Source: Chitinophagaceae bacterium (lineage in GTDB: Bacteria; Bacteroidota; Bacteroidia; Chitinophagales; Chitinophagaceae). Taken from it: a DNA stretch of 42,854 nucleotides. A model generated the notes under the pieces. The model was not told where the DNA came from. It was given only the letters and a program-made list of their open reading frames with translations, and made no database searches. Shown here piece after piece: positions 7,998 through 42,747 of this stretch; positions within the stretch are counted from its first letter, which is position 1; every line of letters begins with the position of its first letter. Position numbers and translations under genes: made by a program. The stretch is from positions 1 to 42,854 of the forward strand of contig CANFHO010000010.1 in the NCBI GenBank assembly GCA_947447005.1, written 5' to 3'.

Positions 7998-8112
7998 GAA
8001 AAGAGAAAAGTGAAAAGAGAAAGGAGAAAGGAGAAAACAGCCTTATTTACCATTCAGGCAATAAACTCCTTTTCCATTCAATTTTCTCTTTTCTCCTTTC
8101 AATTTTTCTCTT
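7998..8112. repeat. Heptad-repeat inverted pair, ileS/hmuY spacer
   Basis: The purine arm (7998-8038) is almost six consecutive 7-mers: GAAAAGA, GAAAAGT, GAAAAGA, GAAAGGA, GAAAGGA, GAAAAC. After about 43 nt comes a pyrimidine arm (8082-8112) with TTTTCTC units. The reverse complement of the purine arm matches the pyrimidine arm at 18 of 19 positions in the best register. The pyrimidine arm runs into the stop codon of the HmuY-like gene (TTA at 8112-8114). Confidence 0.85.
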
Positions 8113-8753
8113 TAAAAGACTTTCGTCCCATTGCCCTGATAGCTATATCTAAATGTATAATAACGCTGAAAACTGGTTTTTATAGCATCTGTTGCAGTAG
8201 CTGCTGGAGTTATACCACCTTTGTAGTAATTCAGTATCTCCACTTTAGCGTACTTACCACTAGCGGTTTTTATCACCAAAACCCGGCCAGGTATTGGCGT
8301 TATCAGGTTATTCACAAAATCATAAACATACCATCCTTTATTGCTTCCTGTAGTAATTGCATAGGAAGTTGGAACATTATCCACTTTAATGGTTGAATCG
8401 GCAGGCACGGCAGTTAATGCATCAAAGGTGCCAGTATAAACAAACCCACCACCAGCACCTGGACCACTATTTCCTCCATTGGTTATAATGGTTGTTCCCC
8501 TAAATGCAATATCCCAATTCACTGAATTTGAATCACTGTTGGCTATTATTTTATTATTGGCAAGACTAAAGAAAGTAAACTTTCCCGCACCTACAGGCTG
8601 CCCGTTTACAAGTCCGATGATGGTATCGGCTGGTAAAGAATTAACGGTATTACTTGTCAGTGTGTTGAGGATTACAGGCGTTTCATTTTTGCTACAGGCT
8701 GCAAATAAAATAACAGATAAAAAAAGGATAGAGGTTGCTGTTGAATTTCTCAT
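8112..8753 (-). CDS. HmuY-like heme-binding lipoprotein
   Basis: 213-aa lipoprotein. The signal peptide ends in lipobox LFAAC (C20). The remainder resembles the HmuY family: a VNWDIAFRGT strand near residue 80, a GWYVYDF segment near 145, and a C-terminal KVEILNYYKG...YYTFRYSYQ strand pair. HmuY of Porphyromonas captures heme at the cell surface and passes it to a TonB receptor. The gene follows the TonB-receptor gene after 16 bp, as expected for an hmuRY-type operon. Whether it binds heme is inferred from family and context; I did not identify axial ligands. Its stop codon touches the heptad array. Confidence 0.8.
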   Translation of the reverse strand: MRNSTATSILFLSVILFAACSKNETPVILNTLTSNTVNSLPADTIIGLVNGQPVGAGKFTFFSLANNKIIANSDSNSVNWDIAFRGTTIITNGGNSGPGAGGGFVYTGTFDALTAVPADSTIKVDNVPTSYAITTGSNKGWYVYDFVNNLITPIPGRVLVIKTASGKYAKVEILNYYKGGITPAATATDAIKTSFQRYYTFRYSYQGNGTKVF

Positions 8754-8769
8754 TTAGACGTTTTTATGA

Positions 8770-10845
8770 TTAAAAATGTAGTTGAAGATTGATATAACTT
8801 AACCGGCCAGGATTGCCTGGAAGATTGGCAGGGTCTTTATAATTAAATATATTATCCATGCCTGCCATGAGTTCCCACTTGTCTTTTTTATAACCTACGG
8901 AGGCATTCGTTTGCAAATAACCTTTTGCAAATTCGTCTGAACGGTTAATGAGTCCGTTTCCATCCATATCAACACTTCCCCATTTACCTCTATAAATATT
9001 TCTAAGGGTAGCAAAAACACCATTCTTACTTGAATACAATAATTTTACATTGGCAGTGTACATTGATCTGTAAGGAAGTCCCCCATAGTCCTTCAAGTGC
9101 ATCACAGATGCGATTCCGGTATGTAAATCTCTTTGGTATACTTGACCCCTCGTAATGGCATCAAGAACATCTTTGTCTGCTGAATATAAAAACTGATAGC
9201 CCCCATTGACAGTAAATACACCATTCATTTTTTTTGAAAATCCAGCTTCCAAACCTTCCGTCAGGCCTCGCTTCAGATTAAAATAACTGAATATCTGTCC
9301 AGCGTTTTTCTTATACCCAATTATATCAGTAACAATCATGTTACTTAAATCATTTCTGAAAAGATTGATATGCAGAGATAGGTCCTTTTTAAAGTTTACA
9401 TTCATGCCCAGATTGAGCCCGCCTGATGTTTCAGGTTTCAGAACATTCAATTTATCGTACATCGCAGTTGCCTGATCGAGCAATCCACCTGCAATCAATC
9501 TTTTCATTTCAACCTTAGCAACTTCTGTACCAAATACGGAATAGGCACCAGCAGCAAGATTGGTAAAATTCAGATACAGTTGTCTGAAGTCGGGTGCCTT
9601 AAATCCTCTTCCATAAGAAAGGTTGAAGTCGATATTATGTGAAAGCTTGTATTTAAATGCAATCTTGGGACTTAGGACTGAAGCATAGGCACTGTTGTAA
9701 TCATATCGAGCACCTCCAACCAAGACCAGTGTTGGAGTGAGTTTTTTTTCCCATTGTGCATAGGTATATAGAATCTGATTAAATCTACGGGTTGATAGTG
9801 AGTCATATCTGTTTGAAGAAACGGATTCTTTGATAACTCCAATACCAAAAGTGATTTCAGAATAATTTGAAAGTTGAATATTGGATTGATTTTCAAATTT
9901 GATATAAGATTGCTGAAATCTGTCATTGTACCCTGATGCTATGTCTTTGACCGCTAGTTCCTGAACGGCTTGAAATCCAGTAAAATAAGCCCTCGTAACA
10001 TTTTTGAATGATTTGTTGAGTTCGTATTCTACATAAGGATTGATATTAAATTCATTGCTTTTTTCAAACCCCTGCGACAAAACATTCACTCCTCCATTTT
10101 GTACATTGATGCTGTTTTTGATATACGTGTTATTATATCGAAGTCCAATACCATACTTCATGTGTTTATTGAACTGCCCAGACAGATTGGCGTTTTGAAA
10201 AGATCGCCAGAAAGGCTCAACTGTTTTTTGGTTGGCATTGGGTTTTAAGCTATACCCTTCTGAGCTGTTTACATTGAATGATGCATTGACTTGTATATGT
10301 TTGAATTTTCTTGCATAATCAAAAGATCCATCCATTGTATTGAATCTGCCATATCTCACATTAAGATCTGACTTATAATTAGCTGCATCGTATGTAATAA
10401 TATTTACCACCCCACCCATTGCTTCAGAACCATATAAACTGGAAGAAGGTCCTTTGATGATTTCTATTTTTTTTACCCCTCTGACAGACAATCTGGACAG
10501 GTCGAGCACACCTCCTGTTCTTCCAATAAGCGGCTCGCCATTCAAGAGAATCAACGTATAATCAGAAGACAATCCTTGAACTTGAATACCCTTTCCGAAA
10601 TTATCAGTCACAACAATTCCTGTTTGCTCTGAAAGAATTTCATTCAACCTCAAAGATCCGCTCTGGTAAAGGGTTTTGGCATTTATCACAGAAACAGGTA
10701 TGGCCACATTTCCCAATAATCGCGGTGATTTTGTTGCAGTCACCACTACCTCGTCCATGTCTTTTGAAAAGGTCGAATCTGTTTTTTGTTGCGCATGTAA
10801 AGTCAATGACTTAACAGCAAAAAGAAATAAGAAAAAACGCTGCAT
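8770..10845 (-). CDS. TonB-dependent receptor, HmuR-like
   Basis: 691-aa outer-membrane receptor. After a short signal peptide ending HAQQ comes a TonB-box-like DEVVVTAT (about residues 31-38), the plug domain (about 40-150, with IKGPSSSLYGSEAMGGVVNI) and a 22-strand-type barrel ending in aromatic YINLQLHF. The plug motif and C-terminal aromatic signature are diagnostic of TonB receptors. Pairing with the HmuY-like gene suggests heme or another iron source. A CAACTTTG box (10863-10870, minus), one base off TAnnTTTG, lies shortly upstream. Confidence 0.88.
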   Translation of the reverse strand: MQRFFLFLFAVKSLTLHAQQKTDSTFSKDMDEVVVTATKSPRLLGNVAIPVSVINAKTLYQSGSLRLNEILSEQTGIVVTDNFGKGIQVQGLSSDYTLILLNGEPLIGRTGGVLDLSRLSVRGVKKIEIIKGPSSSLYGSEAMGGVVNIITYDAANYKSDLNVRYGRFNTMDGSFDYARKFKHIQVNASFNVNSSEGYSLKPNANQKTVEPFWRSFQNANLSGQFNKHMKYGIGLRYNNTYIKNSINVQNGGVNVLSQGFEKSNEFNINPYVEYELNKSFKNVTRAYFTGFQAVQELAVKDIASGYNDRFQQSYIKFENQSNIQLSNYSEITFGIGVIKESVSSNRYDSLSTRRFNQILYTYAQWEKKLTPTLVLVGGARYDYNSAYASVLSPKIAFKYKLSHNIDFNLSYGRGFKAPDFRQLYLNFTNLAAGAYSVFGTEVAKVEMKRLIAGGLLDQATAMYDKLNVLKPETSGGLNLGMNVNFKKDLSLHINLFRNDLSNMIVTDIIGYKKNAGQIFSYFNLKRGLTEGLEAGFSKKMNGVFTVNGGYQFLYSADKDVLDAITRGQVYQRDLHTGIASVMHLKDYGGLPYRSMYTANVKLLYSSKNGVFATLRNIYRGKWGSVDMDGNGLINRSDEFAKGYLQTNASVGYKKDKWELMAGMDNIFNYKDPANLPGNPGRLSYINLQLHF

Positions 10846-10948
10846 CAGGAATGATTATGAAGCAAAGTTGAAACATCAACACACAATCATTATCATGGAA
10901 ATGTCATAGAAATAGTTGTGATGTTTTTTTGACAAACAGGTGACAAAT

Positions 10949-11072
10949 CAAGAGAAAAGAGAAAAGAGAAAAGAGAAAAATGAAGTGATGAAATAGGAAA
11001 GTAAAGAGTGGAGCAAGAAAAATGATTATTGGCTGTTACATTCTTATCTTTTCTCTTTTCACTTTTCTCTCA
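10949..11072. repeat. Heptad-repeat inverted pair, receptor/araC spacer
   Basis: The purine arm at 10949-10985 contains three perfect GAAAAGA units (10954-10974). The pyrimidine arm at 11048-11068 is CTTTTCT, CTTTTCA, CTTTTCT. The arms are complementary at 22 of 24 positions in the best register, with a loop of about 65 nt. The pyrimidine arm runs into the AraC-gene stop (TCA at 11070-11072, read as TGA). Confidence 0.85.
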
Positions 11073-12005
11073 TTTGCTAAGTAGCTCACAAGGCTTGAGT
11101 CCTGTATGCTTTTTGAAGGCAGTCGAAAAATGTGAAATGGAAGAATAGCCCAATGTAGCTGACACTTCAGAAACGGTAAATCCTTTTTCGTACAAAAGAT
11201 AACGTGCATGTTCCATGCGTTGATCCTGATAGAAGTCGAATATGGTTGTGCCATACATCACCTTAAATCCTTTTTTCAGATAGCACTCATTGATAGCCAC
11301 TTTTCTGCTCAATTCCTTGATGGTGATTGGATCTCCGATGTGTTTTAAGAGTGTTTCTCTTGCCAACATGATTTTTTCCCTTTCGCCTGCGTATTCCAAA
11401 AATTTACATGCAGGAACCTCATCTTCCTTGACTTCAGACAATGCTTCCAAACAATACAGCAATAAAACCTGTGTTTGAGCATTCATAAAAATATTCTCAA
11501 CCTCTTCCTTGTAAGGATTGTTTAGAATAGATTCAAGTGTTTGGCGAATCCTTCCTGAAAGTTGGATTGGCTTTGAAAAAGAATGTTCGTATTTAAAGTT
11601 GAGCAATGCATAGGTTTCAGAAAAAACGATATCCGATTTAATAAGATTTGAAAGATGAAGGGGCTCAAATCTGAATCGAAGCATATCCACTGTATCATTC
11701 TGCTCCACACATGCAGCATCTTTATTGAACTTGCATTCCTCACAATTCGCATGAACATGTCCGCAATATGTTTGTCCGCTGACACAAAATCTAAATTCCA
11801 AAAACCGCTCTGAACTGATTGCATCGTAATTATACATCAAAGAACCTTGTTCATCCACAAGCATTCTTGACTGTTTTTGATATCTTTTTATCTGAAAACG
11901 CCAGGAACCTGGGATATTTTTCTCTTTTGTATGCAAAACAGGCATATCTGAGGGAAAATCCCAGTCTACACTCAATAATGGCTTTATTTTGGTTAAAATC
12001 TGCAT
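11070..12005 (-). CDS. AraC-family regulator with N-terminal cysteine cluster
   Basis: 311-aa transcription regulator. The C-terminal 95 residues hold two helix-turn-helix motifs of the AraC type (IKELSRKVAINECYLKKGF, then GFTVSEVSATLGYSSISHF ending in FKKHTGLKP). The N-terminal domain is unassigned but carries C74, C81, C88, C91 and C99, spaced C-x6-C-x6-C-x2-C-x7-C. This suggests a metal, Fe-S or redox sensor (inference). It lies upstream of the heme-uptake genes on the same strand, which fits control of that module. A perfect -7 box TAAGTTTG (12013-12020, minus) ends 7 nt before the ATG, so the transcript may be nearly leaderless. Confidence 0.88.
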   Translation of the reverse strand: MQILTKIKPLLSVDWDFPSDMPVLHTKEKNIPGSWRFQIKRYQKQSRMLVDEQGSLMYNYDAISSERFLEFRFCVSGQTYCGHVHANCEECKFNKDAACVEQNDTVDMLRFRFEPLHLSNLIKSDIVFSETYALLNFKYEHSFSKPIQLSGRIRQTLESILNNPYKEEVENIFMNAQTQVLLLYCLEALSEVKEDEVPACKFLEYAGEREKIMLARETLLKHIGDPITIKELSRKVAINECYLKKGFKVMYGTTIFDFYQDQRMEHARYLLYEKGFTVSEVSATLGYSSISHFSTAFKKHTGLKPCELLSK

Positions 12006-12012
12006 CTCTTTA

Positions 12013-12020
12013 CAAACTTA
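12013..12020 (-). promoter_or_regulatory. Predicted -7 box of the AraC-family gene
   Basis: The minus strand reads TAAGTTTG, an exact TAnnTTTG. Its proximal end is 7 nt from the ATG. No TTG is seen 17-23 nt upstream, which would suit an activator-dependent promoter, though that is inference. Confidence 0.4.
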
Positions 12021-12140
12021 CACCCAATAAATGAGGCCTAACCCTCCCCAATGTAAAAAAAGGGTCATTTTTGTGGAAATAATCTGAAAAAATAAGCGGT
12101 TATTTACCTTTCCATATTATATTAACCCCTTTGTTTTCAG

Positions 12141-12148
12141 TAGATTTG
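12141..12148 (+). promoter_or_regulatory. Predicted -7 box of gyrB
   Basis: TAGATTTG matches TAnnTTTG and leaves a leader of about 35-40 nt before gyrB. A TTG at the standard spacing is absent; the nearest TTTG is only 7 nt upstream. Confidence 0.4.
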
Positions 12149-12166
12149 TAGACATTTTTCAGTTGA

Positions 12167-14170
<2,004 letters not shown>

Positions 14171-14195
14171 TTTATTCATTATTAAAACAATCAAC

Positions 14196-14402
14196 ATGTC
14201 AAACGGAAAAATGCTCACAGCGTACAACGTTAAAACAAAAGAAAGGGATGTTCCAATGCAGGATGCAGTAGTAAGCCGCACAGCTAAAGGTGGTTATATT
14301 GCAAAGGGCCATGATGGAAAAGGGAACAAATTGACCGCTCTTTTGGGAGAAGCAAAAGCATTGGAAGCAATCAAGAATGGCGTAGCCAAACAAGATTGGT
14401 AG
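14196..14402 (+). CDS. Small conserved-looking protein downstream of gyrB
   Basis: 68-aa ORF starting 25 bp after gyrB and ending just before an intrinsic terminator, so it is probably the last gene of a gyrB transcript. It is basic and glycine-containing, with TAYNVKTKERDVPM near the start and an alanine-rich C-terminal helix. There is no signal peptide or membrane segment. I do not recognise a family. The clean position between gyrB and its terminator and the balanced composition support a real gene. Confidence 0.7.
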   Translation: MSNGKMLTAYNVKTKERDVPMQDAVVSRTAKGGYIAKGHDGKGNKLTALLGEAKALEAIKNGVAKQDW

Positions 14403-14429
14403 TATTACATACCCTCAATCATTTTATTG

Positions 14430-14458
14430 AAAAAGCCGCCCAATAGGGTGGCTTTTTT
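14430..14458. terminator. Intrinsic terminator after the gyrB unit
   Basis: AAAAAGCCGCCC (14430-14441), loop AATA and GGGTGGCTTTTT (14446-14457) form a 12-bp stem with one G-T pair and a T run. The A-rich left side means it may also stop transcripts arriving from the SUI1 gene on the other strand. Confidence 0.88.
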
Positions 14459-14482
14459 ATTATCTTCCGTAGGGTTTTATTG

Positions 14483-14592
14483 CATTTCTCCATTTCTCCA
14501 TTTCTCCATTTCCCCGTTTCACCATTTCACCGTTTCCCCGTTTCACCCTACTCTTTTCTCTTTTCACTCTTCTCTTTTCTCTTTTCTCTTTT
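14483..14592. repeat. Tandem octad plus heptad array beside the SUI1 gene
   Basis: Positions 14483-14546 hold eight consecutive 8-mers: CATTTCTC three times, then variants such as CATTTCCC, CGTTTCAC and CGTTTCCC. After 4 nt the period changes to 7: CTCTTTT (x2), CACTCTT, CTCTTTT (x3) at 14551-14592. The last unit shares its final T with the stop codon of the SUI1-domain gene (TTA at 14592-14594). No complementary purine arm is present nearby, unlike the other arrays. Confidence 0.9.
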
Positions 14593-14924
14593 TATCCCTT
14601 GACTTTGTATTTATTCTTCTGCAACCATCCCCTCACCTTCTCCCTGTGATCTCCCTGAAGAATAATCTCCCCTTCCTTTGCAGAACCACCTGTTCCGCAA
14701 TGATTTTTTAACTTTTTGCCTAATTCAGCCATATCCTCTTCTTTACCGATGAAACCTGTAATCAATGTTACGGTTTTTCCTGCACGATGTTTTGTTTCCA
14801 TGCTCAAACGCAAGATTTGCTTTTCTGCAGGCAAGGTTTCCTGTTCTTCTTGTTCCTCCTCCGGCTTGAAACCAGGATCAGTGCTGTATACGAGCGCAGG
14901 CCTATCGTCTTTATGTTTCTTCAT
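14592..14924 (-). CDS. SUI1/YciH-domain translation factor
   Basis: 110-aa eIF1/SUI1-domain protein of the YciH type. The domain covers about residues 45-110, with the core GKTVTLITGF, LGKKLKNHCGTGGSAK and a C-terminal EIILQGDHREKVRGWL helix. The first 40 residues are acidic and probably disordered. Bacterial YciH proteins are thought to monitor translation initiation fidelity; the role here is inferred. I chose the ATG at 14924 over an in-frame ATG at 14990, because the added 22 residues would be hydrophobic and outside the domain. Confidence 0.85.
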   Translation of the reverse strand: MKKHKDDRPALVYSTDPGFKPEEEQEEQETLPAEKQILRLSMETKHRAGKTVTLITGFIGKEEDMAELGKKLKNHCGTGGSAKEGEIILQGDHREKVRGWLQKNKYKVKG

Positions 14925-14997
14925 GTAAGTTGATTGAGAAAGCTGATTATATGCAAATATGATGCATTTCATTTTTACTACATAATCCATTCAGAGA

Positions 14998-15025
14998 TTG
15001 GTTTGTTGGAAATGAATTAATTTTG
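14998..15025 (+). promoter_or_regulatory. Predicted promoter of gpmI, possibly leaderless
   Basis: TTG (14998-15000), a 17-nt spacer and TAATTTTG (15018-15025) match the Bacteroidota consensus. The -7 box ends 4 nt before the ATG at 15030, so transcription would start at or beside the start codon. Confidence 0.55.
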
Positions 15026-15029
15026 TGAC

Positions 15030-16553
15030 ATGGAAACCAAAAAAAGTATACTCGTTATTATGGATGGCTGGGGACTGGGTGCAGTTCCGGAAAGTGATGC
15101 CATCAAACATGCCAATGTACCTTTCGTGAGTTCACTCTATGGAAAGTATCCTCATTCCACATTGATAACTTGTGGAGAGCAGGTTGGATTGCCTGATGGA
15201 CAAATGGGGAACAGTGAAGTAGGACATCTGAATCTTGGCGCAGGCAGGATTGTGTATCAGGAACTCCAACGGATCAATGTGGCAATTCGCACAGGTACTT
15301 TCCAACAGAATGAAACATTGTTACAGTCGATCAGGTATGCCAAGAGAAATAACAAGAAACTACATCTCATTGGGCTTGTAAGTGATGGCGGTGTCCATTC
15401 CCATATCAAACATGTAGAAGCCATTGTTGACCTCTGCAAGATGGAAGGACTGGACAATGTTTTCATTCATGCGTTTACAGATGGAAGGGATACCGATCCC
15501 AAAAGTGGACTTGGTTTTATAAAAGAATTGGAGTCGCATATTGCAGGTTCGACAGGCAAGATTGCAAGTATTACCGGCAGGTATTATGCCATGGACAGAG
15601 ATAAGAGGTGGGAACGTGTAAAGTTGGCTTATGATGGATTGGTAAAAGGCGAAGGACAACATGCAACTGTTGCATCGGATGCAATAGCGGCATGTTATGA
15701 AAATAATATTACAGATGAATTCATCAAACCAATCATCATTGTTGATGGAAACCACAAGCCTATAGCAACCCTTGAAGAAGGGGATGCAGTTATTTGTTTC
15801 AACTTCCGAACAGATAGGTGCCGTGAGATTACTGAAGTATTGACACAAAAGGATTTTCAGGAATTCGGTATGCACAAACTTGCCTTGGAGTATACAACCA
15901 TGACTGAGTATGATAATACATTCCATCATGTACATGTAATTTTCACCAATGATAACCTAACGCATACGTTGGGAGAGGTTTTGGAGCAACATGGTAAAAC
16001 TCAAATTCGTATTGCTGAAACAGAAAAATACCCACACGTTACCTTCTTTTTCAGTGGCGGAAGGGAAGTCCCTTTTGATGGCGAAAGAAGAATCATGGCA
16101 GCATCTCCAAAGGTGGCTACGTATGATCTTCAGCCTGAAATGAGTGCATATGAACTCACTGAAAAAATAGTACCAGAGATCAAAGCAAAATCAGCTGATT
16201 TCATCTGCTTGAATTATGCAAATGCTGATATGGTTGGGCATACTGGAATTTGGGACGCAGCCATCAAAGCTGCAGAAACAGTGGATGCATGTGTTAAACA
16301 AGTGGTTGAAGCTGCCTTGGAAAACGGCTATACTATTTTCCTGACAGCGGATCATGGCAATGCTGACTTTATGAAAAACAATGATGGAAGTCCCAATACA
16401 GCACATACGCTCAACCCAGTTCCTTTATTTATCATTGATAAAGACTGGAAAGGTGAAATCAAACCTGGCAAATTAGGAGATATTGCCCCAACAATCCTTC
16501 ATTTTATGGGATTGCCAATACCTGGAGAGATGACAGGAAACATATTGGTTTAG
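15030..16553 (+). CDS. gpmI: 2,3-bisphosphoglycerate-independent phosphoglycerate mutase
   Basis: Interconverts 3- and 2-phosphoglycerate in glycolysis, using two metal ions and a phosphoserine intermediate. 507 aa, the usual length. Alkaline-phosphatase-fold motifs are visible: LVIMDGWG (metal Asp near residue 11), catalytic Ser62 in GNSEVGH, HAFTDGRDTDP, GRYYAMDRDKRW, and the C-terminal metal sites NYANADMVGHTG and TADHGNAD. It is a single-gene unit between a predicted promoter and a strong terminator. Confidence 0.97.
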   Translation: METKKSILVIMDGWGLGAVPESDAIKHANVPFVSSLYGKYPHSTLITCGEQVGLPDGQMGNSEVGHLNLGAGRIVYQELQRINVAIRTGTFQQNETLLQSIRYAKRNNKKLHLIGLVSDGGVHSHIKHVEAIVDLCKMEGLDNVFIHAFTDGRDTDPKSGLGFIKELESHIAGSTGKIASITGRYYAMDRDKRWERVKLAYDGLVKGEGQHATVASDAIAACYENNITDEFIKPIIIVDGNHKPIATLEEGDAVICFNFRTDRCREITEVLTQKDFQEFGMHKLALEYTTMTEYDNTFHHVHVIFTNDNLTHTLGEVLEQHGKTQIRIAETEKYPHVTFFFSGGREVPFDGERRIMAASPKVATYDLQPEMSAYELTEKIVPEIKAKSADFICLNYANADMVGHTGIWDAAIKAAETVDACVKQVVEAALENGYTIFLTADHGNADFMKNNDGSPNTAHTLNPVPLFIIDKDWKGEIKPGKLGDIAPTILHFMGLPIPGEMTGNILV

Positions 16554-16586
16554 CCGTAAAAATCATAATTGTACGATTAACATCTG

Positions 16587-16617
16587 AAACAGGTCTTTTT
16601 GAAAGACCTGTTTTTTT
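16587..16617 (+). terminator. Intrinsic terminator of gpmI
   Basis: A perfect 12-bp stem, AAACAGGTCTTT (16587-16598) with AAAGACCTGTTT (16602-16613), has a 3-nt loop and continues into a T run to 16617. It lies about 34 nt after the gpmI stop. Confidence 0.9.
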
Positions 16618-16681
16618 ATATAATACTGTAAAAAGAAAAAATTATGCAGCACCAAAAATTAAAAAATTGTCTTATTTTCAG

Positions 16682-16699
16682 AGATCATTAAACTGATCT
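16682..16699. promoter_or_regulatory. Palindrome in front of the ECF sigma gene
   Basis: AGATCA (16682-16687), a 6-nt gap and TGATCT (16694-16699) form a perfect dyad ending 2 nt before the sigma-factor ATG. It could be an operator, or a small RNA hairpin affecting initiation. A 6+6 dyad can also occur by chance. Confidence 0.3.
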
Positions 16700-33995: not shown

Positions 33996-34003
33996 GGGAT
34001 AAA

Positions 34004-34078
34004 GTTAGGTGTTAGGAGTTAGAAGTTAGGCATTAGAATGACTTTTTCTAACACCTAACTTCTAGCTACTAGCTTCTA
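34004..34078. repeat. GTTAGNN heptad inverted pair, gpsA/efflux-adaptor spacer
   Basis: The left arm (34004-34038) is five 7-mers: GTTAGGT, GTTAGGA, GTTAGAA, GTTAGGC, ATTAGAA. After 9 nt the right arm (34048-34078) reads CTAACAC, CTAACTT, CTAGCTA, CTAGCTT, CTA in the same 7-nt phase. The final CTA (34076-34078) is the TAG stop codon of the efflux-adaptor gene. Every unit carries TAG or TAA-type triplets, so all three frames are stopped. Confidence 0.92.
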
Positions 34079-35458: not shown

Positions 35459-35485
35459 CTTACTGTGATTTACTTTTTCTGTTGA

Positions 35486-36940
35486 TTATAATTTCAGTCC
35501 CTGACCCTTGTAGAATTCAAGTACTTTCATTCTGAATACATATTCATACTGAGCAACAACTTTATCGATTTTTGCTCTGGTTAGATTGTTTTGGTTTGTA
35601 AGCCATTCAATGGTTTGCATCACACCAATTTCATATCTTTTGGAAGCCAATTCAAATGACCTTGCTGCGGTTTCCAATGCTTTTTGTCGCGCCAAGTAGG
35701 TTTGGAATGCCCCGGAAGCACTGTAATATGCAGTATATATATCTTGCTTTAATTGTAACTTGTCACGTTCAATGGCGAGATCATTTTTCTTCACTTCCAA
35801 ATACGCTCTTTGCACATTTGCCCTTGCCTGATGTCCATTGAAAATCGGAATGTTTACCGATAAACCTAGTCCCTGGCCGAATTGATCACGTAGTTGTTTG
35901 CCATATCCATTCCAGTATTCACCAAAGCTTCTCATTTGATATTTCAAGTCGTATGCAGGAGCATATACAGGCACTTGTGTAACACCTTGTTTTATATAAG
36001 CACCCGTCTGTTGTTCGCCGGAATAGGTATACCCCAATGGTTTCTTCAGGAATTGGTTAAAGTTGGAACTCAATTGTCCGAATGCTGAAATGGATGGTTT
36101 CATGATTGCTTTTGATGCAAGCAGCGTTTTCTGAGCAGCTTGCATACGAAGATCATTTCCTTTGATTTGCGGTTGAGAAGTAAGGGCTGTTTGATATAAT
36201 CCATCCGGTACAATATCCAGAATATTATCAACCTGAATCATATCGATTGGGGGTGCAACCAATTCAAAAGGAATATCCGCCTGGAGCGATAACAATGATT
36301 TGAGAGAAAGCTTATCCAGATTGGCTTGCGACATAGCCTGTACATACGTTGCAGAATCGCGCGCTACTGTTGCTTCGAGTTCAGCTGCATTTAGCTCAGG
36401 CAGACTTCCTGCATCCACAAGTTTACGTGTATTGCGGTATTGTGCGTTGGTTTGATCGAGAACAATTTTGCTAATTTCCACCTGTTCCCTGCTCAACAAA
36501 GCACGTAAATAGGTTGCCGCAATGTTCAGTCCTATGTCATTTGCAGCCTTATCAACAGCTGCCTGATCTGCTTCCCAGCTGAGTTTGCTGGCCATCAAAC
36601 TATTTTTTCTGCTATTGAAATTGAAGAGCAATGCATTGGATTGAATGCTCATTTGCTCAAACATTGCAGAGCGACTTGTATAAACATTGGTAGTGCGATC
36701 GAGTGTGCGACCGAAAGAGAAACCATGCGACATGCTATATCCCAATGAAGGGAGCTGTGCCATAACCGCTTGGTCGTAAGAAATTTTAGATTGCTCCGCT
36801 TGAATAGCAGTCTGACGAACATTGATATTGTTCTTCATTCCATATTCAACACAACGCCTCAAATCCCACTTCTGATCTTGTGCGTTGACTGCGCCAACGG
36901 ATGAGATCAACAAAAGAAGGGGTAAAACCGACAATTTCAT
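35486..36940 (-). CDS. TolC-family outer-membrane efflux protein
   Basis: 484 aa. A signal peptide ends near VNAQDQ. The family's repeated helical-barrel halves follow, with the first recognisable segment WDLRRCVEYGMKNNINVRQT and the late segment SFELASKRYEIGVMQTIEWLTNQNNL. TolC-like proteins form the trimeric outer-membrane channel of tripartite exporters. The gene is first in a two-gene unit with the adaptor. The 115-bp spacer upstream shows no strong promoter match. Confidence 0.92.
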   Translation of the reverse strand: MKLSVLPLLLLISSVGAVNAQDQKWDLRRCVEYGMKNNINVRQTAIQAEQSKISYDQAVMAQLPSLGYSMSHGFSFGRTLDRTTNVYTSRSAMFEQMSIQSNALLFNFNSRKNSLMASKLSWEADQAAVDKAANDIGLNIAATYLRALLSREQVEISKIVLDQTNAQYRNTRKLVDAGSLPELNAAELEATVARDSATYVQAMSQANLDKLSLKSLLSLQADIPFELVAPPIDMIQVDNILDIVPDGLYQTALTSQPQIKGNDLRMQAAQKTLLASKAIMKPSISAFGQLSSNFNQFLKKPLGYTYSGEQQTGAYIKQGVTQVPVYAPAYDLKYQMRSFGEYWNGYGKQLRDQFGQGLGLSVNIPIFNGHQARANVQRAYLEVKKNDLAIERDKLQLKQDIYTAYYSASGAFQTYLARQKALETAARSFELASKRYEIGVMQTIEWLTNQNNLTRAKIDKVVAQYEYVFRMKVLEFYKGQGLKL

Positions 36941-37055
36941 ATTTAATAGGTTGATTTTGTGTCTGTTTCAGGAAGTTTCCAAAAACCAATGCAAAGATTC
37001 AACCAAAAAAGGGATTCTCAAAATCATTCGTCAGTTTAGGCGACCGCTTACAACA

Positions 37056-38216
37056 TCAGATGGAGGCAAAAGCCTGGCCTAGGTCATGGATCAGGAATTC
37101 GGGGTCTTCCAACCCGACGTACAAGCGTAACATCCTGTGTGTAGGGTTTTTAGGATCGAATTCATGTGATTGTATTCCTGCGCATTTGGGTATGATCAAG
37201 GATTCATGACCGCCCCAACTAACGGCCATTCTGAATGATTTGAGGGAATTGCAGAATTTTTCTATTTCTTCCATCTTTTGCGCTTTGATATAAAAGGATA
37301 TCAATCCACATGCCCCTTTCATTTGTTTTTGAGCCAGTTCATGTTGTGGAAAGGATGGATCCAGTGGGAAAATCAATGATTCAATCTGTTCCACTGACTT
37401 TAAATACCCGAGTACTTTGGCTGTAGAAGCAGTGATCCGATCAATGCGTGCAGGGAGTGTTCTCAATCCGCGCAATAATAGCCATGCGTTGAAAGGCTGG
37501 ATGCCGCTTCCGATGCACATGTACTCGCTTTCAAATATTTTACGCATCATGCTGGCAGAGCCAGAAATGACTCCACCCAGGGTATCTGAATGTCCGCCAA
37601 TGTATTTTGTGGCAGTTTGCATGGACATATCGATGCCCAGTTCTATGGGCTTTTGATATAAGGGGGTAGAAAAACTATTATCGATTAGGGTAATGATGCC
37701 ACGTGCTTTTGCAACATCTGCAATGGCTTTCAGGTCTTGAATATCCAGCCACCAGGAGTTGGGAGATTCAAGATAGATGAGCGTGGTATTTTCCTGCACA
37801 TGAGATAAAAATGATTCCAGGTTGGTGCCATCCGCATACGTGGAACTCACACCAAAGCGAGGCAGAATCTTGTCCAGCAGATGAACTGTCCATGAATATG
37901 GATGAGATACACTTAGAATATGATCACCAGATTTTACATTTGCAACAACTGCAGCATAAATGGCTGCAGCACCATTGTTGAATACCAGTGCATCTTCCGC
38001 ACCATCCAGGGCAGCCAGTTTTTTTCGGAGGATGTCAACCGTAGGGTTCAATCCCCTGCTATACAGATACCCGCCCATTTCATCTTCAAAAGCCTTGCGC
38101 ATGTCCGCCACCGTTTCAAACATAAAATTGCTGGTTTGAATGATGGGCGGTGCGATGGCATTGAAATAATTTCCATGTTCTTCACCCAGGTGGTTGATGA
38201 TGTAAGAAGTATCCAT
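37056..38216 (-). CDS. Cys/Met-metabolism PLP-dependent enzyme (C-S lyase-like)
   Basis: 386-aa fold-type I PLP enzyme of the cystathionine gamma-synthase/beta-lyase family. The phosphate-binding YSRGLNPT lies at residues 52-59, the PLP-ring Asp is D179 in IDNSFSTPLYQ, and the Schiff-base lysine is K204 in TATKYIGGHSD. The usual SSGMAAI helix start is NNGAAAI here, and the substrate tyrosine region reads HPYSWT. Whether it acts as cystathionine beta-lyase, gamma-lyase or methionine gamma-lyase cannot be told from this. Its ATG overlaps the permease stop as TGATG, implying translational coupling with amino-acid uptake. Confidence 0.88.
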   Translation of the reverse strand: MDTSYIINHLGEEHGNYFNAIAPPIIQTSNFMFETVADMRKAFEDEMGGYLYSRGLNPTVDILRKKLAALDGAEDALVFNNGAAAIYAAVVANVKSGDHILSVSHPYSWTVHLLDKILPRFGVSSTYADGTNLESFLSHVQENTTLIYLESPNSWWLDIQDLKAIADVAKARGIITLIDNSFSTPLYQKPIELGIDMSMQTATKYIGGHSDTLGGVISGSASMMRKIFESEYMCIGSGIQPFNAWLLLRGLRTLPARIDRITASTAKVLGYLKSVEQIESLIFPLDPSFPQHELAQKQMKGACGLISFYIKAQKMEEIEKFCNSLKSFRMAVSWGGHESLIIPKCAGIQSHEFDPKNPTHRMLRLYVGLEDPEFLIHDLGQAFASI

Positions 38217-39553
38217 CAGGAAATCGTTTTGGTTTTCTTGGCAGTGAGAAAATATAATATCAGGAATGCCGCCAACACAGCGGTGGCAGTAAGTGCAGTC
38301 ATGGGTTTGGTGATAGCAATATTGATGGCGATGAATGTATAGGATGCAATAAAAATGATAGGCATCAATGGAAAGAATTTCATGGTGTAGATCTGTTTCG
38401 GATCAAGGTGGCTGGTTCTTTTTCGGATGATGAATATGGTGGCTGCGGAGAATGCCATCCCAATGCAATCCAGAAACATGGTGAAACCCAATATTTTATC
38501 CACTGTTTTAGCAAAGAACAAGACCACTACCGTGATGAGTGCATATACTGTAAGACTAACCGTCAATACATCTTTCTTTTCATCTTTTTTGCTGAATGCT
38601 TTTGGAAGAATTCCATCCTGGCTCATGGCATACATCACACGCGGGTTGCTCATGAGGAGCACGTTGACATAAGCAAGTACCGCCATGAAAAGCAAGATAG
38701 AAAAAACGAATCTGCCTGAGGGACCAAACATGCGTTCTGCAACAATGGCTGCGATGCCTTTTGCATTTTTAAGTTCCTCGAAGCCAATTTGTTTATAATA
38801 GGCATAGCTCACAGCGAGATAAAGCAGGATGATTACGATGATTCCGATGAAAATGCCGCGTGGAAGATTTTTCCGTGGATTTTTTATTTCATCACCAAAA
38901 TTGATAGTTTGTTGATATCCGCCATAGGTAAAGGATACAGCTACCAGGGCTACCCCAAATGATTTCACATAATCCCAAAAAGTCAAGTCTGTTTTAGGCA
39001 CAAAATCATGAACTACTTTGGAAGATGAAGGAAAAAATATTCCAGCCACTATCAGGAGAATCATGGATATCTTGATCAACATGAGAATATTTTGTGTGGT
39101 TGAGCTCATGCGCAATCCCATGAGATTTACCCCATAGAACATGATAATGGCAGCCATGGCTATTAGCGACCGAACAAGGTCTGATGGTGGTGTTGAGAAG
39201 ATGACCTGTGATATATATTCACTACCGATCAATGCCACCAAGGCCAATGAAGAAGCATTCGAGATGAGAATGATACAATTCACTGCGAATGCTATGGAAG
39301 GATGATAGCAGGTGGCGAATATTTTATAATAGCCTCCAGTGATTGGGTAACGTGATCCTATTTCAGCATAGGTAAGCGCGCCACAAAGAGCAATCAATCC
39401 GCCAGCCACCCAAGTGATAAAAAACACAGAGGGGGTCACTGCTGCATTCGCAGAATCGGATGCAGTTCTGAAGATGCCCATGCCGATCACCAGACCTATC
39501 ACGATCATGGTGATGTCGAATAAATTCAAGAGTGGTTTTTTCGGGTTTGTCAT
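38216..39553 (-). CDS. APC-family amino-acid permease
   Basis: 445-aa membrane protein with about 12 helices. The first helix carries the APC glycine motif VIGMGIF near residues 22-28, and the second reads WVAGGLIALCGALTYAEIGSRYP, a family signature. It probably imports or exchanges an amino acid. Its stop/start overlap with the downstream PLP lyase suggests a sulfur amino acid as substrate (inference). It is divergent from the cobalamin-riboswitch receptor, with a heptad array 15 nt upstream of its ATG. Confidence 0.9.
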   Translation of the reverse strand: MTNPKKPLLNLFDITMIVIGLVIGMGIFRTASDSANAAVTPSVFFITWVAGGLIALCGALTYAEIGSRYPITGGYYKIFATCYHPSIAFAVNCIILISNASSLALVALIGSEYISQVIFSTPPSDLVRSLIAMAAIIMFYGVNLMGLRMSSTTQNILMLIKISMILLIVAGIFFPSSSKVVHDFVPKTDLTFWDYVKSFGVALVAVSFTYGGYQQTINFGDEIKNPRKNLPRGIFIGIIVIILLYLAVSYAYYKQIGFEELKNAKGIAAIVAERMFGPSGRFVFSILLFMAVLAYVNVLLMSNPRVMYAMSQDGILPKAFSKKDEKKDVLTVSLTVYALITVVVLFFAKTVDKILGFTMFLDCIGMAFSAATIFIIRKRTSHLDPKQIYTMKFFPLMPIIFIASYTFIAINIAITKPMTALTATAVLAAFLILYFLTAKKTKTIS

Positions 39554-39567
39554 GCGGGGAAGTTAAT

Positions 39568-39664
39568 AAAAAAAGAGAAAAGAGAAGAGTGAAAAGAGAA
39601 GGGATATTAAATTCCATTCACCTTTGTATTTCATTTTTCACTTTTCCCTTTTATCTTTTCTCTT
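39568..39664. repeat. Heptad-repeat inverted pair in the permease/btuB divergent spacer
   Basis: The purine arm (39568-39603) contains AAAAGAG twice, AAGAGTG, AAAAGAG and AAGGG in a 7-nt register. The pyrimidine arm (39634-39664) contains TTTTCAC, TTTTCCC, TTTTATC and TTTTCTC. The arms pair imperfectly. This is the only array not close to a stop codon: it sits between two divergent genes. Confidence 0.8.
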
Positions 39665-39728
39665 GTTCTATTCACATCGTGTTAAAAACAAAATCATCCC
39701 ATCCCAACTTTCACCTGCATCTTTGTGA

Positions 39729-39905
39729 TGCATTTGGTTGAATGCCCCTGAAGGGAAATTCATTAAAAGGGAAGTCCGGTCTGATTCCGGCGCTATCCCC
39801 GTAGCTGTAAAGACCTCTGCGAAAGCAAAACATCTGCAACATACGCCACTGTTCAAACGGGAAGGCTTGCAGATGGGGTTGAGCCAGAAGACCTGCCTGA
39901 TGTAC
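39729..39905 (+). ncRNA. Cobalamin (adenosylcobalamin-type) riboswitch
   Basis: The conserved core reads GGGAAGTCCGGT (39769-39780), then GATTCCGGCGCTATCCCCG and TAGCTGTAA, the class signature. The B12 box appears as GAGCCAGAAGACCTGCC (39881-39897). A 9-bp helix joins CATCTGCAA (39831-39839) with TTGCAGATG (39867-39875). A CATCTTTG box (39718-39725) could be the -7 element starting the RNA near 39731. The BtuB-like receptor is the regulated gene; B12 binding should reduce its expression. The boundaries are approximate. Confidence 0.95.
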
Positions 39906-40012
39906 ATTTTATCACACGAGCTTTCGGGAGAAAGGCTGGAGATGTTGAAACTGTATTATCAGCCATTCATTTCTGTTTATGTCCCCAAGGTTCATAGTAA
40001 ACCTTCACTATG
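39906..40012 (+). promoter_or_regulatory. Expression platform between riboswitch and btuB start
   Basis: Two mutually exclusive hairpins overlap the start codon. One pairs AAGGTT (39987-39992) with AACCTT (40000-40005). The other pairs CATAGT (39993-39998) with ACTATG (40007-40012), whose last three bases are the AUG. GGCTG (39934-39938) with CAGCC (39960-39964) may form an upstream stem. No U-tract terminator is seen, which points to translational control. Confidence 0.5.
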
Positions 40013-41962
40013 ACCAAACATTTATTATTTGCATGCATGATGCTAACATCCAAGGTGATGTTTGCGCAGAAAGACACCAGCGTCCGGTCACTCGAAGAAG
40101 TGATTGTAACGGCAAATCGTTTCCCTCAAAAACAGATCAGTACTGGTAAAGTCATAACCACCATCACCCGGGCTCAGATTGAAAAAACACCTGTACAGTC
40201 CGTAGGAGAATTGCTTAGTACACAATCAGGGATTAATGTTCTAGGAACAAACAATGCGCCAGGAACCAATCCGGATCTGTATTTCAGAGGAGCAGGCACA
40301 GGTAGTGTATTGATTTTGGTGGATGGAAATCCAGCCTATGATGCATCAACGATTCGATCTACCTTCGATTTGAATTTCATTCCGCTGGATGAGATCGAAC
40401 GCATTGAAATATTGAAAGGGGGACAATCCACTTTATATGGTTCAGATGCTGTAGCGGGTGTAATCAACATCATCACCAGAAGCAATGAGCAGAAAAAACT
40501 CAAAGCCAATTTGCATCTATCCGCAGGCTCATACAAGACGAAAAAAAGTGAATTGAGTGTAGGTGGTAAAACGAAACTAATCACATACAAAGCAGAATTG
40601 GGAACCACCCGTTCAGCAGGATTTTCATCAGCTGCAGACACATTTAAGGTGAAGTCGTTTGACAAAGACGGCATGCATAGAAGATTTGTGCGTGCTGAGA
40701 TTGGATCGTTGCCAGGAAAATCATGGAATTGGACTACATCATTCCAGCAAACGAAGTACAGCAATGACATGGATGAAACGAGGTTTGAAGATGCCAAAGA
40801 TTCCAAAGTAGACAATAGCAATATGCAATGGAATGCCCAGGTATCCAGGAAGCTGGGAAATGCAACCATTCATGCGAATTTCTCCACCAATAATTCAGTG
40901 AGACATTACAAGGATGATTCATTGTATTTGAATGGTTTTTCAAAATTTATTTTATCTGATTTCACAGGCAGGTCCAGTTATGCAGAATTGTATTCCACTA
41001 TCAAATTGAGTGATCAAATTCAGTTGTTCACAGGTATTGATCACAGATGGCAAAACACCGATCAGTATTATTTTTCTGTTAGCAGCTGGGGTGATTATAG
41101 TTCAACGATATCAAGTGATTCAGCCAAAACAAATGTGAGTAGCGCCACTGCGTCGTTGGTATACAATGGTAAGAAGGGATTCAATGTTGAGGGTGGAGTT
41201 CGATATAACAAACACAGCAGGTATGGAGATCATGTCACATACACATTCAATCCTTCTTATCTGTTCAAAAATAAATTCAAGTTTGCCTATAATTTGTCGA
41301 GCGCGTTCATGTCGCCTACCCTGTATCAATTGTATGATGGATATTCAGGTGAACATAATCTTCAACCCGAAACATCTGTGAGCAATGAAGTATCTGTTCA
41401 ATACATAGGCATGAAAGATTTGAATCTAAGGGCCACCTTTTTCAGCAGAAACATTGATCATGGCATTGATTACAGTTATGAATCCTACAAGTACTACAAT
41501 TATGGCAAGAAGAAAGATCATGGAATGGAGCTTGAAGCATCTTATACATTTGGAAAGTGGGACATGCATGCAAACTATACTTATTTGAAAGGGAATGTAA
41601 CTACAGCCAATTATGTGTACAATTCGAGTACATGGTTGTATGAGAAAAAAGGCGATACTACCTATTCGCATTTGTTCAGGGTGCCCGCTTCAACGTTCAA
41701 TGCACACATTGGTATTCAGGCAAGCAAGAAGCTGTATATATCGATATCACAAAAAATCGCTGGCAAAAGATTTGAGCCCATTTATGGAGCATCGCCCGTA
41801 GAGATGAAAGCATTTCAAACAACCGATTTATTTCTACAATACAGTGTGAATCGTTCATTGAAAATATATGGTTCCTTACGAAATCTCTTTAATACCCAGT
41901 ATCAGGAGATATGGGGATATAATACGATGGGGAGGAATGTTGTGTTGGGAGTGAGGTTTTGA
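40010..41962 (+). CDS. btuB: BtuB-like TonB-dependent cobalamin receptor
   Basis: 650-aa outer-membrane receptor. A signal peptide ends near VMFAQK, then come the TonB-box-like LEEVIVTANRF (about residues 28-38), the plug (about 40-155, with PDLYFRGAGTGSVLILVDG and IEILKGGQSTLYGSDAVAGVINIIT) and a 22-strand-type barrel ending NVVLGVRF. The cobalamin riboswitch directly upstream is the main evidence for B12 or another corrinoid as substrate. No BtuCDF genes are in the window. It ends 8 nt before a repeat array. Confidence 0.93.
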   Translation: MTKHLLFACMMLTSKVMFAQKDTSVRSLEEVIVTANRFPQKQISTGKVITTITRAQIEKTPVQSVGELLSTQSGINVLGTNNAPGTNPDLYFRGAGTGSVLILVDGNPAYDASTIRSTFDLNFIPLDEIERIEILKGGQSTLYGSDAVAGVINIITRSNEQKKLKANLHLSAGSYKTKKSELSVGGKTKLITYKAELGTTRSAGFSSAADTFKVKSFDKDGMHRRFVRAEIGSLPGKSWNWTTSFQQTKYSNDMDETRFEDAKDSKVDNSNMQWNAQVSRKLGNATIHANFSTNNSVRHYKDDSLYLNGFSKFILSDFTGRSSYAELYSTIKLSDQIQLFTGIDHRWQNTDQYYFSVSSWGDYSSTISSDSAKTNVSSATASLVYNGKKGFNVEGGVRYNKHSRYGDHVTYTFNPSYLFKNKFKFAYNLSSAFMSPTLYQLYDGYSGEHNLQPETSVSNEVSVQYIGMKDLNLRATFFSRNIDHGIDYSYESYKYYNYGKKKDHGMELEASYTFGKWDMHANYTYLKGNVTTANYVYNSSTWLYEKKGDTTYSHLFRVPASTFNAHIGIQASKKLYISISQKIAGKRFEPIYGASPVEMKAFQTTDLFLQYSVNRSLKIYGSLRNLFNTQYQEIWGYNTMGRNVVLGVRF

Positions 41963-41970
41963 TTGGATGA

Positions 41971-42092
41971 TGAAGTTTAGAAGGTTTAGGAAGTTGAGAA
42001 GGTTAGGAAGTTTTGAGGGTTTAGAAAATAAAAAAATGAGTATCTTAACAATAAAACCTAAACCTTCTAAACCTTCTCAACATCTAAACTTT
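41971..42092. repeat. Inverted pair of 8-9-nt repeats, btuB/marC spacer
   Basis: The purine-rich arm (41971-42024) repeats motifs such as GAAGTTTA, GAAGGTTTA and GAAGTTGA. The opposite arm (42053-42092) repeats CCTTCTAAA, CCTTCTCAA and CATCTAAA. A 16-nt block beginning GTTTAGAAGG (41975-41990) is exactly the reverse complement of part of the right arm. The array starts about 8 nt after the btuB stop and ends just before marC. Confidence 0.85.
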
Positions 42093-42097
42093 CAAAA

Positions 42098-42670
42098 ATG
42101 ACATTCGACGAAATAATCACAGTAACCTTTACCCTTTTTGCGGTGATTGATATCATCGGATCAATACCATTGCTTTTGTCGCTCAAACAAAAGATGGGAG
42201 GCATTCATGAAATGAAAGCCAGCTTGATTTCAGGCGGATTGATGATTTTCTTTTTGTTTGTAGGTGACAAATTTTTGAGTGTATTGGGAGTGGATGTAAG
42301 ATCCTTTGCCGTAGGTGGTTCAATTGTGATTTTCATTTTAGGGTTGGAGATGGTGTTGGGAATTGAATTCTTCAAGGGTGATGGGGATTCCAAATCAGGC
42401 ACGGTTGTACCGATTGCATTCCCGCTTATTGCAGGATCTGGCACACTAACAACCATCATCTCACTCAAATCAAGTTACAATGAATTGCCCATTCTCATTG
42501 GCATTCTGATCAATGTAGTGTTCGTTTACCTGGTATTACATTCCCTGGATTTTATTTCCAAACTACTTGGACATGCAGGCATGCTAGCCGTGCGTAAATT
42601 CTTTGGCGTGGTTCTGTTGGCTATCGCGGTGAAGATATTTGCCTCTAATGTAGGTGGACTTATTAAGTGA
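42098..42670 (+). CDS. MarC-family integral membrane protein
   Basis: 190 aa with five to six hydrophobic helices, matching the MarC (UPF0056) family: FDEIITVTFTLFAVIDIIGSIP at the start, GGSIVIFILGLEMVLG, PIAFPLIAGSGTLTTIISL (the signature segment) and VRKFFGVVLLAIAVKIF at the end. The physiological role of the family is unresolved; the multiple-antibiotic-resistance link suggested by the name has been questioned. The TGA stop is itself part of a heptad unit of the array that follows. Confidence 0.9.
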   Translation: MTFDEIITVTFTLFAVIDIIGSIPLLLSLKQKMGGIHEMKASLISGGLMIFFLFVGDKFLSVLGVDVRSFAVGGSIVIFILGLEMVLGIEFFKGDGDSKSGTVVPIAFPLIAGSGTLTTIISLKSSYNELPILIGILINVVFVYLVLHSLDFISKLLGHAGMLAVRKFFGVVLLAIAVKIFASNVGGLIK

Positions 42671-42747
42671 AAAGAGAAAAGTGAAAAGAGAAAAGTTTTC
42701 GCGCGCTTTAACTTCTTCAACCCCTTCAACTTTTTCAACCTATTCAC
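42667..42747. repeat. Heptad plus nonad array after marC
   Basis: The purine arm (42667-42694) is four perfect 7-mers: GTGAAAA, GAGAAAA, GTGAAAA, GAGAAAA. The marC stop TGA (42668-42670) lies inside the first. After a short GC-rich spacer comes a 9-nt series at 42712-42747: CTTCTTCAA, CCCCTTCAA, CTTTTTCAA, CCTATTCAC. The two arms belong to different repeat types and are not good complements. Bases 42748-42854 hold nothing I can support. Confidence 0.88.

Follow-up and report, generated by a model that had tools for sequence, protein, structure and literature searches.

Inverted arms of near-private short repeat words at gene 3' ends in a Chitinophagaceae genome: candidate bidirectional transcript-end hairpins

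The intergenic spacers of a Chitinophagaceae bacterium (assembly GCA_947447005.1, here G000) harbor numerous repeat elements that are described here starting from contig CANFHO010000010.1 (C10), of which the whole stretch analyzed, 42,854 nucleotides (nt), is referred to as the window. In its full form, the element consists of a degenerate word of 7-9 nt repeated in two arms that are inverted relative to each other, with the G-rich strand coming first and the C-rich strand second as the spacer is read from gene border to gene border. Tentatively, with a probability of about 0.4, we suggest that these elements are mainly bidirectional 3'-end hairpins that would do the job of a terminator, the words themselves having been spread by some other process. 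RNA polymerase leaving either gene would transcribe the G-rich arm first and the C-rich arm second; the RNA-DNA hybrid on the C/T arm would be the weaker one, and the RNA could be pulled off it through pairing with the upstream arm. An element of this kind, being its own reverse complement, would serve both directions, and such a self-reverse-complementary structure would explain both the one-way polarity and the freedom of the words. We infer termination itself, and hybrid weakness as the cause of the polarity, from the sequences; by estimated energies, the hybrid is weaker for the C/T strand as RNA in 167 of the 174 arrays with a label. The genome's own words appear to have spread to many loci, and this spread would require a process other than local slippage, which by itself would not place one word at separate loci.

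Results

G000 is a draft of 2,901,208 bases in 169 contigs. The largest sample analyzed comprised 1.587 Mb (55% of the genome) in 81 stretches, including the window, and smaller subsets of 1.187 Mb and 422 kb were used for some of the counts. Gene borders were taken from a simple longest-open reading frame (ORF) caller, so that some borders are off and some spacers, such as the one after gyrB, contain small genes; the 1.187 and 1.587 Mb counts cover spacers of 30-1500 nt, and the array caller allowed tandem steps of 6-9 nt.

The repeats are real and genome-wide. Arrays with a period of 6-9 nt occur in 118 of the 749 spacers of the 1.587 Mb sample, 177 arrays in total. In the 1.187 Mb subset, 78 of 535 spacers carried an array, against 6 of 1070 dinucleotide shuffles, and 118 arrays were found in 83 kb of spacer DNA, against 31 in 1.09 Mb of coding DNA; the step was 7 nt in 65 of these 118 arrays, 8 nt in 48, nearly matching 7 in frequency, and 9 nt in 5. 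A score of at least 14 for a period of 5-12 nt was reached by 32 of 191 spacers and by none of 573 dinucleotide shuffles, and the same comparison for inverted repeats gave 24 of 191 and 0 of 573. Spacer autocorrelation peaks at lags 7 and 14 and is also elevated at 21, 8, 5, and 9 (422 kb). Single short arrays might resemble what low complexity in A+T-rich spacers produces by chance, but the shuffles, the disparity between spacers and coding DNA, and the autocorrelation refute this explanation, leaving it with virtually no probability. The initial annotation had named a comparison with shuffled sequence and a search for further copies as its checks; both were run, and neither refutes it.

Element frequency tracks gene 3' ends. 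Elements occupy 34 of 97 convergent spacers (35%), 70 of 463 co-directional ones (15%), and 14 of 189 divergent ones (7%), and the gradient is also seen among spacers of 60-149 nt (20/50, 25/191, and 4/81, respectively). Where an array lies beside a 3' gene end, its gene-proximal edge is a median of 3 nt away (n=97); beside a 5' end, the median distance is 21.5 nt (n=42). Two more specific proposals concerning borders were rejected: that the C arm halts at a promoter is unsupported, since 10 of 51 cases with an array in the final 60 nt have TAnnTTTG there, vs 128 of 624 without, and the period continues into the stop codon in only 8 of 62 abutting arrays.

The order of the arms is nearly invariant. 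Adjacent arrays with opposite labels come as G then C in 40 cases and as C then G in 3 (1.587 Mb), that is, 18:3 in co-directional, 17:0 in convergent, and 5:0 in divergent spacers. The pyrimidine-first order, initially described as never seen, is indeed missing from the window and is rare rather than absent in the larger sample (3 of 43 opposite-arm pairs). The 5' end of the G strand faces the nearer gene, whatever the direction of that gene, in 134 arrays and faces away in 32 (134 of the 166 arrays clearly nearer one gene), although, the arrays of one element not being independent, a formal p-value overstates the case for this orientation.

The two arms of an element belong together. In 34 of the 40 elements with the G-then-C order, the same word is used in both arms, compared with a mean of 10.4 and a maximum of 18 in 1000 re-pairings. 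Beyond the shared word, an element's own arms match in register better than re-paired arms do (29 elements in three word families of at least three elements); the match of own arms was reached by 7 and 3 of 2000 permutations at the inner ends and by 35 and 24 of 2000 at the outer ends. The arms are separated by 2-153 nt, with a median of 43. The words found in G000 include AGAAAAG, AGGCAARG, GGCACRAG, GGCARTAG, GTTAGGA, GGAGAAAC, GTGGAATA, and 9-mers such as GTTTAGAAG, and 46 of the 177 arrays fall outside the eight word classes used. The first arm had originally been called purine-rich: the order holds, but G-rich is the better description (G- and A-rich in G000), given that words of other species, GTTATGA, GGTTGAC, and GTTAATT, are not purine-rich and yet retain the G-then-C order. 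Likewise, the elements form a family in the sense of one architecture with several words, genome-wide and in congeners, but the term is loose because the words are unlike between elements. A quadruplex motif (four runs of at least 3 G or C, loops of 1-7 nt) is present in only 2 of the 177 arrays, and some GGG or CCC in 66.

A recurrent heptamer in G000 lies on the inner side of the arms, reading AACAGCC at the first or GGCTGTT at the second. In the 422 kb sample, all 16 non-coding matches were located at arms; this universality is gone at 1.587 Mb, where 23 of 44 non-coding matches lie within 40 nt of arrays (arrays with these margins make up 16% of the non-coding DNA). Among 20 places in congeners chosen for the presence of AACAGCC/GGCTGTT, 9 show the pair embedded, by eye, in arms with very different words (G045, G044, and G055), and the rest are compact hairpins or other palindromes. 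Many AACAGCC..GGCTGTT pairs in congeners are compact hairpins or longer palindromes that lack heptad arms.

Some elements are composite. Small palindromes of a second kind, the CCTGCC(TTC/GAA)GGCAGG type, are mixed into AGAAAAG arrays (L169 135-280, with at least three copies; L050 6355; L196 2967), and at L192 17861-18620 four arrays alternate with longer GTTGCC-type palindromes; both are mosaics reminiscent of bacterial interspersed mosaic elements (BIMEs). Three convergent elements with GGCAAGG arms (L039 6826-6979, L041 4153-4346, and L199 12191-12315) enclose a common core that resembles a terminator, GGGAGTCAG..CTGCTCCC, in one orientation or the other. Near-identical AGAAAAG elements in opposite orientation are located at the starts of contigs C4 and C8 (L041 ~130-250 and L047 ~60-220), and elements of this type at contig starts may break the assembly. 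In congener G045, a further repeated palindrome has CCACRGA..ACAC-type arms around AACAGCC, with a step of about 9 nt by eye (L201, L202, L204, L206, and L212 near 2001).

In the window, seven spacers had been listed as carrying short tandem repeats, and Tandem Repeats Finder gave rows for each of them, corroborating both the repeats and their coordinates. The features are as follows, all on the + strand:

7997..8037: G/A-rich arm, word AGAAAAG (7 nt), between an hmuY-like gene and ileS
8036..8042: heptamer AACAGCC, at the inner edge of the AGAAAAG arm
8082..8113: C/T-rich arm of the hmuY-ileS element
10950..10979: G/A-rich arm AAGAGAA (7 nt), araC-tonB spacer
11031..11037: heptamer GGCTGTT, ahead of the araC-tonB C/T arm
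11047..11070: C/T-rich arm of the araC-tonB element, abutting the 3' end of the araC-type gene
14429..14458: ordinary intrinsic terminator (hairpin and T tract), preceding the pyrimidine arrays
14483..14547: C/T-only array, 8-nt word CATTTCTC, without a purine arm
14551..14592: C/T-only array, 7-nt word CTCTTTT, abutting the end of the SUI1-type gene
34003..34038: G-rich arm AGTTAGG (7 nt), hlyD-gpsA spacer
34046..34071: C-rich arm of the hlyD-gpsA element
39571..39600: G/A-rich arm AAAAGAG, divergent spacer (permease / cobalamin riboswitch)
39629..39664: C/T-rich arm of the permease/cobalamin-riboswitch spacer element
41972..42026: G-rich arm, 9-nt word GTTTAGAAG
42058..42097: C-rich arm, 9-nt step CTAAACCTT, ending at the start codon of the marC-like gene
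42665..42696: G/A-rich arm AAGTGAAAAGAGAA (7 nt step), overlapping the end of the marC-like gene
42706..42756: C/T-rich arm with a different word, CTTCAACTT (9 nt)

The architecture that had been ascribed to all seven, a purine arm followed by a matching pyrimidine arm, applies to five (7998-8112, 10949-11072, 34004-34078, 39568-39664, and 41971-42092). At 14483-14592, there is no purine arm, only two pyrimidine arrays, the first with an 8-nt and the second with a 7-nt step, downstream of an ordinary terminator; at 42667-42747, a 7-nt AAAAGAG-type purine arm is followed by a 9-nt CTTCAAC-type pyrimidine arm, a different word, and the two are not reverse complements. Several neighboring features deserve mention. 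A small ORF (~68 aa, by eye) at ~14196-14402 (+) lies between gyrB and the heptad arrays, and a similar one is found behind gyrB in relatives L051, L052, L053, and L075. A cobalamin riboswitch (Rfam RF00174, 95.4 bits) at 39718-39914 (+), directly upstream of a TonB-dependent receptor gene, is separated by a heptad element from the divergent amino-acid permease gene. Degenerate 18/51-nt repeats (GCTTTTTTTGCAGGTGCT-like) at 4277-4583 fall within the reverse-strand frame 3550-4590 and suggest a repetitive protein segment.

We compared 41 genomes of the genus, that is, G000 and 40 congeners, searching for the words with two mismatches allowed; matches overlap inside arrays, so that the counts reflect array length as well as the number of loci. 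The arm words are nearly private to genomes, although some are common to several species. GAAAAGNGAAAAGNGAAAAG has 418 matches in G000, 48 in G022 (mostly GAAAAGTGAGAAGTG-type variants), 13 in G020, and 0-9 in each of the other 38, the reversed-pattern control being uninformative for this word because the pattern is its own mirror. AGGCAAGGAGGCAARGAGGCAA has 260 matches in G000, 1-3 in three genomes, and none in 37, compared with 46 in G000 and 1 elsewhere for the reversed control. Conversely, GGTTGAC yields 93 matches in G022, 92 in G045, 1-13 in six genomes, and none in G000 and 32 more. The 9-mer GGTTGANGN, frequent in G055 (194), G011 (148), G009 (105), G004 (90), G014 (85), G047 (80), and G000 (38) and missing from 19 genomes, is what shows that some words are common to several species.

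At one and the same junction, congeners show the same layout with unrelated words. Upstream of gpsA, where G000 has GTTAGAA-type words, arrays were called in 7 of 29 congener loci, with hlyD in view in 6 of the 7: the 9-mers GTTGAAGGG in G006, G012, and G014, and in G004 with the C arm only and hlyD not in view; the 8-mer GGTTTAGGG in G017; GTTATTG in G040; and a C-only array in G042. G009 shows the same 9-mer at a contig edge (by eye). Among the array-free loci, eleven have a gap of 12-42 nt, and G019, G044, and G045 have an ordinary terminator (by eye); seven of the 29 loci show another arrangement or give no information. Between hmuY and ileS (29 congener loci, both genes in view in 27), three congeners carry arrays: G011 with two arms of a 9-mer, G020 with a single arm (ileS outside the view), and G022 with a C-only array in a 548-nt spacer. 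A compact hairpin is seen by eye in 13 others, of which three lack a clear T tract, and 11 have a spacer of 33-43 nt. In the araC-tonB spacer, an array was found in none of the 14 congener spacers compared, with the promoter-side sequence similar by eye, implying that the element was either gained in the G000 lineage or lost elsewhere.

Farther afield, we sampled 80 gyrB neighborhoods of other Chitinophagaceae and further Bacteroidota; the gyrB product of G000 itself is 90-92% identical to those of four metagenome-assembled genomes, three labelled Chitinophaga pinensis and one Chitinophagaceae bacterium, which makes placement in the family Chitinophagaceae plausible. Arrays are patchy in these neighborhoods, being present in 29 of 668 spacers, and little or no preference for 3' ends is seen (5 of 130 convergent, 20 of 370 co-directional, and 4 of 168 divergent spacers). 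The gyrB neighborhoods of Pinibacter aurantiacus and Flavihumibacter fluminis each have four spacers with arrays.

If the elements are mainly transcript-end hairpins, ordinary terminators might be scarce where they sit, and whether they are depends on the method. With the arms masked, convergent spacers of at least 50 nt contain an ordinary terminator in 4 of 33 cases with an element vs 26 of 52 without (Fisher p=0.0004), and three looser settings give 5/33 vs 27/52, 5/33 vs 26/52, and 6/33 vs 29/52 (p=0.0006-0.0012). Masking shrinks the searchable length (mean 76 vs 145 nt), yet element-free spacers of 50-109 nt have a terminator in 16 of 31 cases. This deficit, together with its shrinking when the arms are left unmasked and its absence from a folding scan, would be expected of elements working as terminators, but also of elements that had overwritten terminators, or if masking hides some.

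Discussion

Several observations weigh against bidirectional transcript-end hairpins as the main explanation. With the arms unmasked and the criteria progressively loosened, the terminator deficit shrinks, from 5/33 vs 26/52 through 9/33 vs 27/52 and 12/33 vs 26/52 to 15/33 vs 29/52, because arms and cores then start counting as terminators; an early deficit of 1/21 vs 24/50 in a smaller sample had already weakened to 5/33 vs 26/52 with more data. A folding scan of convergent spacers gave no clear deficit, whether the cutoff was -8 kcal/mol (22/33 vs 26/52) or -10 (14/33 vs 24/52), and still none when hairpins more than half inside arrays were excluded (19/33 and 12/33). Co-directional spacers show no deficit either (12/67 vs 68/310), although many of the element-free ones in this comparison may lie within operons. 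An ordinary terminator stands beside the element in a few convergent spacers, among them 14171-14591 of the window, and by eye the araC-tonB spacers of congeners contain no clear terminator for an element to replace. An arm hairpin is impossible in the one-armed spacers, about 50 of 118: one called array is present in 69 and, although array-caller counts of single arms run high because a weaker second arm can miss the threshold (as in 3 of the 5 matched-arm window spacers), a weaker inverted arm with a score of at least 12 was found in only 16 of the 69 (3 of 207 shuffled flanks) and with at least 10 in 19 (7 of 207). Divergent spacers, where no transcript need end, keep the G-first polarity (5:0). 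Together with the one-armed arrays, this polarity is left unexplained by termination and points to polarity built into the making of the arms. Finally, congener G011 is poor in elements (2 of 122 spacers), with too few for replicating the G000 tests.

Tolerated, non-functional growth is, in our view, only somewhat less probable: arms would arise by slippage and fold-back copying, or by another strand-polar DNA process, and persist where they break nothing, beside gene ends and away from promoters. One-armed spacers would be common, as they are; the G strand would face the nearer gene regardless of gene direction (134 vs 32 arrays), in divergent spacers too; in-register matching of arms fits fold-back copying; and the unmasked relaxed, folding, and co-directional tests lack a terminator deficit. 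Repetitive extragenic palindromic sequences (REPs), regarded as mobile, show the same placement at 3' ends (PMC3733652). Growth alone, however, leaves the convergent shortage of terminators outside the arms unexplained, unless elements overwrote them, and does not account for unrelated loci of one genome sharing a word that most congeners lack.

Scars of DNA ends that were healed by addition of G-strand repeats and then joined head to head, like fused telomeres, would predict the G-then-C order, single arms, independence of gene direction, and template-set genome-wide words, all of which are seen. This scenario is nonetheless quite improbable because Ku is missing from G000 and 39 of the 40 congeners, no RVT_1 was found in G000, G011, G022, G045, or G055, and a recurring inner heptamer is unexpected at random joins. 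As candidate makers, Ku end joining (Ku in 1 of 41 genus genomes) and an RVT_1 reverse transcriptase as the template writer (5 of 41 genomes, not G000; the search covered the RVT_1 Pfam model only) were both rejected. Mobile palindromes comparable to BIMEs or to REPINs (REP doublets forming hairpins), moved by a REP-associated tyrosine transposase (RAYT) with words drifting later, would fit the dispersed, intergenic, inverted, and 3'-end-biased elements and their recurrent inner heptamer AACAGCC/GGCTGTT, which is near arrays in 23 of 44 cases and inside other-word arms at 9 of 20 congener places. We consider this origin likewise quite improbable: there is no fixed element sequence, words differing within one genome, and no Y1_Tnp was detected in eight genomes with arm words (G011, 100% complete, G009, G004, G014, G012, G006, G017, and G022; these drafts are 74-100% complete). 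A requirement for RAYT is accordingly rejected, Y1_Tnp being present in 23 of 41 genus genomes, with one in G000. Each of Y1_Tnp, Ku, and RVT_1 is absent from genomes that carry arm words. Loading sites for Rho on the C-rich arm were set aside because they predict neither the G-first order nor G-only arrays.

It is also conceivable, although rather unlikely, that several phyla share an undiscovered process that writes G-first words at gene borders, often both arms at once, with a vocabulary particular to each genome that is changed wholesale, the common maker being neither RAYT nor Ku nor RVT_1. Similar repeats may exist in additional phyla. We continue to favor bidirectional transcript-end hairpins with words spread by another process.

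Comparison with known systems

Like ordinary intrinsic terminators, the elements are inverted repeats at gene 3' ends, and ordinary terminators occupy the orthologous spacers of some congeners in their place (by eye); unlike them, the elements have long periodic arms, gaps of 2-153 nt, and a polarity that resides in the arms, not in a short T tract. With REPs, BIMEs, and REPINs, for which roles in termination or mRNA stability have been proposed (PMC3733652), they share short inverted structure, intergenic location mostly in convergent or co-directional spacers, and proximity to 3' ends. REPs and REPINs are palindromes of 20-40 nt with a GTAG or CGTC tag, the GTAG type being linked to RAYT, whereas here there is no fixed sequence, and Y1_Tnp is not required. 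By eye, no fixed palindrome was apparent among the printed elements, in which the GTAG and CGTC tags were not searched for as such.

Heptamer arrays have been reported before, and the initial statement that no such Bacteroidota family had been described was too strong: direct TAACTGA repeats are known from Beggiatoaceae, cyanobacteria, and five Bacteroidetes, being long in some of the latter (PMC4679880). Those are, as here, heptamer arrays in spacers with a patchy distribution between species, but they are direct (169 direct sets and one indirect repeat in the main genome of that report), lie mostly just before start codons, and consist of one word; no tandem TAACTGA doublets occur on either strand of the 1.587 Mb of G000. 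In the open-licence literature, we found no description of elements like the present ones for Chitinophagaceae.

The closest parallels are the GGGAATC heptamers of Xanthomonas and the GGGGA(C/T)T heptamers of Nostoc (PMC4692102). The same source refers to a 2007 report of heptamer enrichment of bacterial genomes and leaves the function open. The Xanthomonas repeats have an inverted, gene-proximal layout, with 70 and 75 inverted pairs in convergent orientation in two genomes; they lie nearer the 5' gene whatever its direction, some overlap stop codons, they are under-represented between divergent genes, and no function is assigned to them; gene proximity is also reported for Nostoc. The elements of G000 resemble these repeats in being mostly intergenic, degenerate, tandem G-rich 7-nt arrays, with G first and C second and the G strand nearer the 5' gene. 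The difference lies in the words: Xanthomonas and Nostoc have one word type per genome, studied in connection with quadruplexes, with 83% kept in place between two species, whereas G000 has many words of 7, 8, and 9 nt, a quadruplex motif in 2 of 177 arrays, and a recurring inner heptamer, and its genus has words that are nearly private to species and unrelated at the same junction. The architecture, then, matches the one-word layout of Xanthomonas, and what is new are the many words, near-private and differing at one junction. In this genus, the layout is not tied to a particular word: polarity and 3'-end placement stay constant and the words vary, which separates the feature that is kept, the architecture, from the one that changes, the sequence. 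Two questions become directly testable: whether transcripts terminate at such arms, and what distributes a word across a genome.

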